From Amycolatopsis azurea DSM 43854 (GTDB lineage Bacteria; Actinomycetota; Actinomycetes; Mycobacteriales; Pseudonocardiaceae), in NCBI RefSeq assembly GCF_001995215.1, contig NZ_MUXN01000027.1, forward strand, positions 310,001-374,000: a stretch of 64,000 bases of DNA. Direction: 5' to 3'. Under the pieces are notes generated by a model. It did not search any database and had not been told where the DNA came from. It saw only the letters and a program-made list of their open reading frames with translations. A program made the position numbers and the translations under genes. Positions 24,910 to 36,072 of this stretch are shown piece by piece (position 1 is the first letter of the stretch; every line of letters begins with the position of its first letter).

Positions 24910-25764
24910 TCAGGCGCTCTTCGGGGTCCGCTTGCCGGAGGCGGGCTTCTTGGCGGCGGTGGCCTTCTTGGCCGTCGACGGTTTCCGGGTCTTCTTCGCC
25001 TCGCTCACGCTGGCCTGCAGGGCCTCCATGAGGTCGACGACGTCGGCCTTCGCCCCGACGGCCTTCGGTTTCGCCGTCTCGTTCCCCGCTGCCTTGGCCT
25101 CGATCATGGCCTCCAGCGCCTCGCGGTAGGAGTCGGTGTACTTCTCCTGCTCGAACACCGGCTCCGAGAGCGAGTCGATCAGCGAACCCGCCATCGTCAG
25201 CTCCTGTGGCCGCACCTGCGGCGGATCCTCGTGCAGGAAACCGAAGTCCGGGACGCGGACCTCGTCGGGCCACAGCATCGTCGTCATCATCAGGACGTCG
25301 CTGTGCACCCGCAGGATCGCGAGCGTCTCGCGCTGCCGGATGGCGACCTTCGCGATCGCCACGTGACTCGCCTTCTGGAGCGCGTCACGCAGGACCACGT
25401 ACGGCTTGACGGCGTTCTTCTGCGGTTCGAGGTAGTAGGTCTTGTCGAAGTGGATCGGGTCGATGGACTCCAGCGGCACGAACTCGAGCACGTCGATCGC
25501 CCGCGACGACGCCAGCGGCAGCTCGGACATGTCCTCGTCGGTGAGCACGACCATCTCGCCGTCGGGCAGTTCGTAGCCTTTGGCGATCTCGGCGTAGGGC
25601 ACTTCCTCGCCGTCGATCGTGCAGAACCGCTTGTACTGGATACGGCCGCCGTCGGCCTCGTGCACCTGGCGCAGCGAGACGTTCTTGTTCTCGGTGGCCG
25701 CGTAGAGCTGGATCGGGATGCTCACCAGCCCGAAGGACACCGAGCCCTTCCACATCGAACGCAT
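24910..25764 (-). CDS. ku: Ku protein, non-homologous end joining
   Basis: 284 residues. It opens with the canonical bacterial Ku sequence MWKGSVSFGLVSIPIQLYAAT and carries the ring-forming core (TYYLEPQKNAVKPYVVLRDAL, KVAIRQRETLAILRV). The last ~40 residues are a Lys/Ala/Pro-rich tail (KKTRKPSTAKKATAAKKPASGK) like the DNA-binding tails of mycobacterial and Streptomyces Ku. It forms a homodimer that threads onto DNA ends and recruits LigD. No functional ligase gene is adjacent; the phosphoesterase-ligase gene at 34.6 kb looks catalytically dead as a ligase. Confidence 0.96.
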   Translation of the reverse strand: MRSMWKGSVSFGLVSIPIQLYAATENKNVSLRQVHEADGGRIQYKRFCTIDGEEVPYAEIAKGYELPDGEMVVLTDEDMSELPLASSRAIDVLEFVPLESIDPIHFDKTYYLEPQKNAVKPYVVLRDALQKASHVAIAKVAIRQRETLAILRVHSDVLMMTTMLWPDEVRVPDFGFLHEDPPQVRPQELTMAGSLIDSLSEPVFEQEKYTDSYREALEAMIEAKAAGNETAKPKAVGAKADVVDLMEALQASVSEAKKTRKPSTAKKATAAKKPASGKRTPKSA

Positions 25765-34517: not shown

Positions 34518-34562
34518 CGAAGGCCCCTTTTCCCACTTTCACGGTGGGAAAAGGGGCCTTCG
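34518..34562 (+). terminator. Terminator of the TetR-ABC operon
   Basis: CGAAGGCCCCTTTTCCCAC (34518-34536) and its exact complement (34544-34562) form a 19-bp stem with a seven-base loop. The AAGGCCCCTT element links it to the AAGG/CCTT palindrome family seen at 39.2 and 63.1 kb. Confidence 0.85.
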
Positions 34563-34632: not shown

Positions 34633-36072
34633 ATGGCGGAGAAACTCGGCGACTACCGCCGTAAGCGCAGACCGGGGCGGACTCCCGAACCCCTTCCTGA
34701 GCGCGACGGGGAGACCGGGTCCGACGATCTCTTCGTCATCCAGGAACACCACGCGAGCAGCCTGCACTGGGACGTCAGGCTCGAACGGGACGGCGTGCTG
34801 GTCTCCTGGGCGGTGCCCAAGGGCCTGCCGATGTCGCCGGATCTCGAACGCCTCGCCGTGCACACCGAAGACCACCCGATGGAATACCTCACCTTCGAAG
34901 GCGAAATACCCGCCGGCGAATACGGCGGTGGCACCATGACGATCTGGGACACCGGCCGGTACGAAACACTGCACTTCAACAACCACAAGGTCGAGGTCGT
35001 CTTCCACGGGAAACGGGCTCGCGGGAAATACCTGTTCCTCAATGTGAAGAAGGACGACAACGATCGCGGCTGGCTGCTGAAACGGCTCGATCCCGCCGAA
35101 CCGGGGCGCGTGGAACTCCCCTCGTTCATCGCTCCGATGCTGACCAAACCGGGACGTCTCCCCTCCACCGGCGAAGACGCGCAATGGGCCTACGAATTCG
35201 ACTGGTCCGGGCGCCGCACCCTGATCCGCGTGTCCGGCGGCCGGATCACCGCGTACGACGATTCGGGGGACGACGTCACCGGCCTGTACCCCGAGTTCCG
35301 CGGGCTGGGCGAGCAGCTCGGTGCCACGGAAGTCTTCCTCGACGGAGAAATCGTCGTCTTCGACGGCGGGAAGCCGAGTCCGGAAGGGCTCGGGCACCGC
35401 GCCCGGGCGACGAAGACCTCCGCGAAGCGGCTCACCGCCCGGTATCCGGCGTTCTACCTGGTCGACGATCTTCTGCATCTCGACGGTCGTTCCTGTGTCG
35501 ACTCGTCCTACGTCGAACGGCGGGAGCTGCTCGACGAAATCGGTCTCGCCGGGCCGCACTGGCAGGTCCCCCGGTACTACCTCGGGGACGGCGGTGCGGT
35601 CGCGCGGGCGGCCCGCGAACACGGGCTCGCCGGCATCGTCGCCAAACGGGCCGACTCCGCCTACCACCCGGGAAAACGGACCGGGGACTGGCTTTCCATC
35701 ACCGGGACCAGGGTCCAGCAGGTGGTGCTGGGCGGCTGGCGGCCGGGTGGCGGCAGCCGGGCGCGCACGTTCAGTTCGCTGTTACTCGGCGTCCCGCACG
35801 AGGACGGCTTGCGGTACATCGGAAACGTCGGCGTCGGCTTCGCCGCCGACGAGTTGGAGGAACTGTCCCGGCGGCTGTTCCGCTTGGAGCGCAAGACATC
35901 CCCGTTCGACTCCGTGCCGGACAAACAGGCACGAGACGCACACTGGTCGCGGCCGACCATCGTCGGTGAGGTCGTCTTCGGCGGCTGGACCGAGGCGGGC
36001 TGCCTGCGCAACCCACGCTGGCGTGGTCTGCTGCCGGAAGTCAGCGCGGAAGACGTCGAACCGAACGGCTAG
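34633..36072 (+). CDS. Phosphoesterase-ligase protein with catalytically degenerate ATP-ligase domain (LigD PE-Lig-like)
   Basis: 479 residues from the ATG at 34633 (a GTG at 34618 touches its ribosome site). Residues ~30-150 are a LigD-type 3'-phosphoesterase with its key residues: QEHHASSLHWDVRLE, HTEDHPMEY, PAGEYGGGTM. Residues ~165-475 follow the LigD ligase fold plus OB domain, but motif I reads YEFDWSGRR (187-195), with Asp190 in place of the AMP-accepting lysine and Ser192 in place of aspartate. Motif IV has Ala333 where glutamate is expected, and the motif V lysine is Ser355. DNA sealing is therefore unlikely; a 3'-end-cleaning enzyme with a DNA-binding pseudoligase is more plausible. 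ku is in the same window at 24.9 kb. Confidence 0.85.
   Translation: MAEKLGDYRRKRRPGRTPEPLPERDGETGSDDLFVIQEHHASSLHWDVRLERDGVLVSWAVPKGLPMSPDLERLAVHTEDHPMEYLTFEGEIPAGEYGGGTMTIWDTGRYETLHFNNHKVEVVFHGKRARGKYLFLNVKKDDNDRGWLLKRLDPAEPGRVELPSFIAPMLTKPGRLPSTGEDAQWAYEFDWSGRRTLIRVSGGRITAYDDSGDDVTGLYPEFRGLGEQLGATEVFLDGEIVVFDGGKPSPEGLGHRARATKTSAKRLTARYPAFYLVDDLLHLDGRSCVDSSYVERRELLDEIGLAGPHWQVPRYYLGDGGAVARAAREHGLAGIVAKRADSAYHPGKRTGDWLSITGTRVQQVVLGGWRPGGGSRARTFSSLLLGVPHEDGLRYIGNVGVGFAADELEELSRRLFRLERKTSPFDSVPDKQARDAHWSRPTIVGEVVFGGWTEAGCLRNPRWRGLLPEVSAEDVEPNG

Follow-up and report, generated by a model that had tools for sequence, protein, structure and literature searches.

Why would a bacterium keep, fused to an end-processing domain, a DNA ligase domain whose catalytic residues have been replaced? 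This question is raised by a gene of the soil bacterium Amycolatopsis azurea DSM 43854, found in a 64,000-nucleotide stretch of its genome (the window). The gene lies on the plus strand as a single open frame of 479 amino acids, running from an ATG at 34633 to a stop codon ending at 36072, just as the first-pass annotation had placed it, and the N-terminus of its product, MA(E/D)KL, is conserved in orthologues. This protein, referred to here as the PE-pseudoligase, begins with a 3'-phosphoesterase (PE) domain (residues 1-150; 34633-35082, plus strand), delimited by Pfam, TIGR02777 and active-site alignment. It is followed by a degenerate nucleotidyltransferase (NTase) subdomain (residues 166-357; 35128-35703, plus strand), placed by Pfam, alignment and an AF2 model, and by an OB-fold subdomain (residues 372-468; 35746-36036, plus strand). 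The corresponding Pfam matches are LigD_N (residues 37-135, E 4e-38), DNA_ligase_A_M (residues 182-354, E 7e-19) and DNA_ligase_A_C (residues 376-466, E 4e-23). A POL domain is absent, so the protein is not a complete LigD, in which PE, POL and LIG are joined in one polypeptide.

The PE domain scores above the curated cut-offs of both models that describe it, with 130 bits for PF13298 (cut-off 31.1) and 168.4 bits for TIGR02777 (cut-off 144). Its metal/phosphate site contains the His, His, Asp, Arg, His and Tyr of a LigD 3'-phosphoesterase (H39, H45, D47, R49, H81 and Y85). More broadly, Q37, H39, H45, D47, R49, S58, E79, H81 and Y85 are all present, matching Q40, H42, H48, D50, R52, S61, E82, H84 and Y88 of P. 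aeruginosa LigD. The first reading of this sequence had described the phosphoesterase residues as intact, which holds for these nine positions and fails at one, the equivalent of P. aeruginosa D15 being R13, a sole and minor exception. On this residue pattern, the PE domain is predicted to be active.

The ligase domain falls under the curated cut-off for NHEJ ligases (TIGR02779, 208.3 bits against 227.75), and alignment to its motif reference, the ligase domain of M. tuberculosis LigD (1VS0), reveals lesions at seven motif positions. Motif I reads E-F-D-W-S-G-R-R (residues 188-195; 35194-35217, plus strand), in which the nucleophilic, AMP-accepting Lys is replaced (K481 to D190) together with the motif Asp (D483 to S192). 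Motif IV, L-A-G-I-V-A-K (residues 332-338; 35626-35646, plus strand), has exchanged its metal-binding Glu for Ala (E613 to A333) and retains Lys 338, and motif V, W-L-S-I-T (residues 353-357; 35689-35703, plus strand), contains neither of its Lys residues (K635 to S355, K637 to T357). The first-pass annotation had recognized the changes in motifs I, IV and V, and had missed the loss of the motif Ia Arg (R501 to D210) and of the motif IIIa Phe (F559 to D278). The residues expected of an NHEJ ligase, namely the motif I Lys nucleophile, the motif IV Glu and the motif V Lys, are thus occupied by D190, A333, S355 and T357. Other positions are kept, including E479 (E188), W482, G484, R486 (R195), E530 (E239), K618 (K338) and the motif V Trp (W353). 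In B. subtilis LigD (BsuLigD), Ala mutants at the equivalents of K481, K618, K635, K637 and E613 are each ligation-deficient (PMC4770248), and four of these five residues are missing from the window protein. Since Ala mutation at these four positions abolishes BsuLigD ligation, nick sealing by the window protein has almost certainly been lost. In dead relatives the Lys site is occupied by A, D, R, W, T or S without a shared substitute, which indicates that no replacement nucleophile has been conserved.

The distribution of these lesions was followed in a homologue set of 184 distinct proteins, 103 with the Lys and 81 without, and in a tree of 85 rows built from PE and NTase with the motif I columns removed. 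All sampled orthologues of the PE-pseudoligase within the genus lack the Lys and form a single clade (support 100/100), and Lys-bearing homologues occur only in genera other than Amycolatopsis. The motif I Asp, the motif IV Glu and the first motif V Lys are retained in 103 of 103 Lys-bearing homologues and have disappeared jointly with the Lys in the Amycolatopsis relatives. The first-pass annotation had asked whether the substitutions are conserved in homologues or mark a recent mutant copy; within the genus, the latter outcome did not occur. A recent mutation or sequencing error was ruled out, the loss of Lys being genus-wide across independent assemblies. The dead PE-ligases descend from Lys-bearing PE-ligases of operons that combine Ku, PE-ligase and POL.

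Loss of the Lys has been a recurrent event in actinobacteria, with at least five occurrences forced by well-supported branches and eight by parsimony. Dead versions of independent origin come from Actinoplanes (L100) as well as from genera belonging to other family groups (L175, L176/177, L178, L179, L180 and L185-190). The OB subdomain has been lost at least nine times on well-supported branches and 12 times by parsimony, six of the latter inside the genus, and is missing from about half of the congeneric orthologues. OB-less proteins terminate at motif V or just past it, which is the NTase/OB boundary, and those not clipped by a contig edge all lack the Lys. Unlike the OB subdomain, the degenerate NTase was never seen missing in this lineage. 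A frameshift or stop artefact behind the OB-less genes was also considered; up to 1.2 kb downstream of 50 such genes no convincing OB remnant was found, with weak matches only (E 0.002-0.06), the best of which, at L170, falls in a separate ligase-like gene.

Several related proteins depart from this pattern. In the Amycolatopsis clade L027/L029/L030/L171/L173, and in L028, PE residues are also changed (H81Q/Y), with H39Q and D47N in addition in L171 and L173; both enzyme domains of these six proteins look dead, and their frames are kept. Another congener (L172:5004-5906, minus strand) has a frame for the degenerate NTase and OB parts, with YELDWGG, in which a PE domain was not detected. Taken together, these cases make a structural function of the ligase-like part more likely than that of a pure PE accessory, or else they mark decay in those species. 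Congeneric proteins with higher PE scores were mostly PE-POL fusions or split PE/LIG pairs outside the pseudoligase lineage. The PE-POL fusion (about 530 aa, no ligase domain) is found in many Amycolatopsis (L194, L199 and similar loci) as another way of splitting LigD and is absent from the window genome. Many congeners also have short PE-domain proteins of a divergent kind, about 125 aa long and matching PF13298 with E about 1e-17 (L210:4768-5079 and similar).

The dead domain is predicted to fold. The AF2 model of the full-length window protein has a pLDDT of 93.7 and a pTM of 0.87, and that of an OB-less relative 94.4 and 0.89. The modelled window protein contains NTase and OB folds, with 6NHX and 1VS0 as the best Foldseek matches, and the modelled NTase of the OB-less relative superposes on that of M. 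tuberculosis LigD (MtLigD) at 2.2 A. Selection was estimated from 19 close orthologues, with the stand-alone active LigD-type ligase from 17 of the same genomes as the comparison. The dN/dS values are 0.115 for PE, 0.122 for the degenerate NTase and 0.133 for the OB part, against 0.132 and 0.151 for the NTase and OB of the active ligase; in the OB-less clades they are 0.21 and 0.29 for the NTase, and 0.19 and 0.23 for PE. Purifying selection acts on the degenerate NTase as strongly as on PE and on the active ligase that these genomes encode, and this low dN/dS means that the ligase domain is not free to decay. The earlier view that this is not simple decay is borne out by the value of 0.12 for the dead NTase and by the lesions shared jointly across the genus. 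Lesions, genus-wide clade and selection together point to a phosphoesterase joined to a ligase domain that has lost sealing and has been kept, not left to decay. With catalytic residues gone, the predicted fold kept and purifying selection in place, the domain qualifies as a pseudoenzyme, its inactivity being deduced from the BsuLigD mutants (PMC4770248).

The genomic surroundings indicate which partners are available. The window genome (9.2 Mb, 54 contigs; its close relatives are Amycolatopsis species) encodes three Ku genes, five POL-type genes and one PE domain, that of the PE-pseudoligase. In the window, this gene is not operonic with Ku or POL: the Ku gene (284 aa; 24910-25764, minus strand) lies about 9 kb away on the opposite strand, in a spacing and synteny conserved across the window clade within the genus, and another part of this contig carries a POL gene (C20:292839). 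The genome also has an intact LigD-type ligase that stands alone (C21:51955), with the motif YKWDGYR and a POL gene beside it. In other Pseudonocardiaceae and further actinobacteria, Ku, a Lys-bearing PE-ligase and the LigD polymerase follow one another on one strand, or Ku is a divergent neighbour. At five Amycolatopsis loci (L023, L025, L026, L169 and L215), POL directly follows the dead PE-ligase with overlapping stop and start codons. Between ABC transporter genes and the PE-pseudoligase lies a perfect 17-bp inverted repeat (AAGGCCCCTTTTCCCAC/GTGGGAAAAGGGGCCTT; 34520-34560), present in a single copy in the genome. It looks like the terminator of the ABC transporter operon, which suggests that the PE-pseudoligase is transcribed separately.

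A second ligase accompanies the dead versions beyond this genome. All 14 non-genus genomes with a version dead at several motifs carry a second LigD-type ligase, compared with four of 34 genomes of the Lys-bearing type (Fisher p 6e-9, a statistic that ignores phylogeny). A smaller sample had given 13 of 13 against 0 of 25; the present counts, and an exception in Crossiella, came with the addition of named genomes. The stand-alone ligases examined retain KWDG. Among the Lys-bearing type, the second ligase is clear in Saccharothrix, Lentzea and Gandjariella and weaker in Prauserella. Since some genomes with the Lys-bearing type also have it, a second ligase looks necessary, and not sufficient, for the death of the ligase domain. 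In the PE-ligase of Crossiella sp. S99.2 (L050:9989-11413, plus strand), motif I reads EFNWDGVR, with Lys changed to Asn alone and the remaining motifs intact. No second LigD-type ligase was found in this genome despite the change; the case does not fit the pattern and could reflect a point mutation, an error or special circumstances.

The explanation that best accommodates these data, and that is probably though by no means securely correct, is an NHEJ end-healing enzyme in which the labour of LigD has been divided, the dead ligase domain providing PE with a platform, structural or for docking, and the break being sealed by a different ligase. PE would trim 3'-ribonucleotides and/or 3'-phosphates at broken ends in a Mn-dependent reaction. 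The ligase domain would be unable to adenylate itself from ATP or to seal nicks, surviving as a folded, non-catalytic module. Its NTase part may dock or position PE on a Ku-DNA end, on POL or on a separate ligase, so that PE would be delivered to broken ends first and the separate ligase would seal afterwards. Docking or positioning is the most likely function of the degenerate NTase because the OB subdomain is dispensable and the NTase is not. A non-catalytic role is also plausible given that vertebrate ligase IV still supports synapsis when it is catalytically inactive (PMC10858965). Several findings count against the platform: the missing Ku/POL operon at the window locus, the L172 protein that keeps its ligase-like part without a detectable PE, and the second-ligase association, with its disregard of phylogeny and its Crossiella exception. 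In addition, not every member can serve to deliver an active PE, as the PE site is damaged in the L027/L029/L030/L171/L173 clade and in L028. A broader proposition, held more tentatively and rated somewhat below an even chance, is that these proteins represent a recurrent class of bacterial NHEJ pseudo-ligases. In this class, the presence of a second ligase would have been followed by the loss of catalysis on five or more separate occasions, leaving non-catalytic platforms (for Ku, POL, the DNA end or an active ligase) that remain attached to PE and are in part reduced to PE plus NTase.

Among the alternatives, the one that survives best, though it is unlikely, is the DNA-end clamp proposed in the first-pass annotation, in which the DNA-binding face of the ligase would grip nicked or broken DNA and hold it for PE. 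In LigD ligases, the OB subdomain helps to hold and encircle nicked DNA. This subdomain has been lost at least nine times, and the mean net charge of the NTase is -5.8 in OB-less members compared with +0.9 in Lys-bearing homologues, neither of which favours a plain clamp; the charge argument is not decisive, the NTase of the window genome's own active ligase being also acidic (net -9). A clamp would be consistent with the fold retained in the models, with the near-invariance of E188, W191, G193, R195, D237-G-E239, K338 and W353, and, by analogy, with the structural action of dead ligase IV in NHEJ (PMC10858965). Docking or scaffolding, or some other activity that was kept, accounts for the data at least equally well.

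Slightly less probable is that the NTase was kept for a ligation-independent 5'-dRP (AP) lyase, with the protein cleaning 3'-blocked as well as 5'-dRP ends and the sealing left to another ligase. A Schiff-base lyase requires an amine. The sole conserved Lys of the degenerate NTase is K338 (99%), whose BsuLigD equivalent is dispensable for lyase activity, and in 12 of the 81 dead proteins this subdomain contains one Lys or none; these observations speak against a precedent that is otherwise attractive, as the BsuLigD mutants K24A, K189A, K206A, K208A and E184A lose ligation and keep wild-type 5'-dRP lyase, which maps to the ligase domain, and PaeLigD has this activity too (PMC4770248). Less probable again is slow decay, in which the ligase domain became redundant on the arrival of a second ligase and is kept only because truncation destabilizes PE. 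The presence of a second ligase in all 14 non-genus multi-motif dead genomes, the stepwise loss of first Lys and then OB, and PE damage in a few members would agree with such a course. It is opposed by purifying selection that matches the active ligase's in strength, by a genus-wide clade with long branches, by the many losses of OB where none of the NTase was seen, and by the retention of the ligase-like part without PE in L172. A non-canonical but active ligase, using another residue or transferring AMP differently, is highly improbable despite the retained adenosine-pocket residues E188 and E239 and K338, given the six alternative residues at the Lys site, none of them common to all, and the loss of the motif IV Glu and motif V Lys, each needed in BsuLigD (PMC4770248).

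The pseudo-ligase reading, if correct, has consequences for how bacterial end joining is annotated. Homology annotation labels this domain a DNA ligase, with Pfam ligase models above cut-off, and surveys of LIG domains would count it as sealing activity. If the pseudo-ligase is conserved, NHEJ in Amycolatopsis and several other actinobacteria would be a split system with healing and sealing on different proteins, and the independent losses would represent natural experiments on the roles of ligase domains in end joining apart from ligation. The components are known individually. No account of their combination, in which a LigD PE enzyme carries a pseudo-ligase that evolved repeatedly and became fixed in nature, turned up in the open-access journal papers searched.

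With LigD of Mycobacterium and Pseudomonas, the window protein shares the PE domain, the NTase and OB folds (about 37% identity to the MtLigD LIG domain by structural alignment) and a genomic tie to Ku and POL; it differs in lacking POL, in the loss of the ligase catalytic residues and in leaving sealing presumably to another protein. The PE-ligases encoded in operons of the order Ku, PE-LIG, POL (Lentzea, Saccharothrix, Streptoalloteichus, Allokutzneria and Gandjariella) are direct orthologues with the same domain order and 53-57% identity, and in them, unlike in the window protein, ExKWDGxR is kept, as are the Glu of motif IV and the first Lys of motif V. Archaeal LigD-type PE enzymes that stand alone (3P43, 3P4H and 5DMP) have the same PE fold and active site, with the modelled PE domain within 0.9-3 A of theirs, but carry no attached ligase-like domain. 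Inactive DNA ligase IV of vertebrate NHEJ offers a functional analogy only, that of a ligase acting non-catalytically in end synapsis; there it is an engineered mutant of an active enzyme (PMC10858965), whereas here the dead domain has been fixed naturally. Should the wider class prove real, it would be the bacterial counterpart of this non-catalytic role of ligase IV in synapsis.
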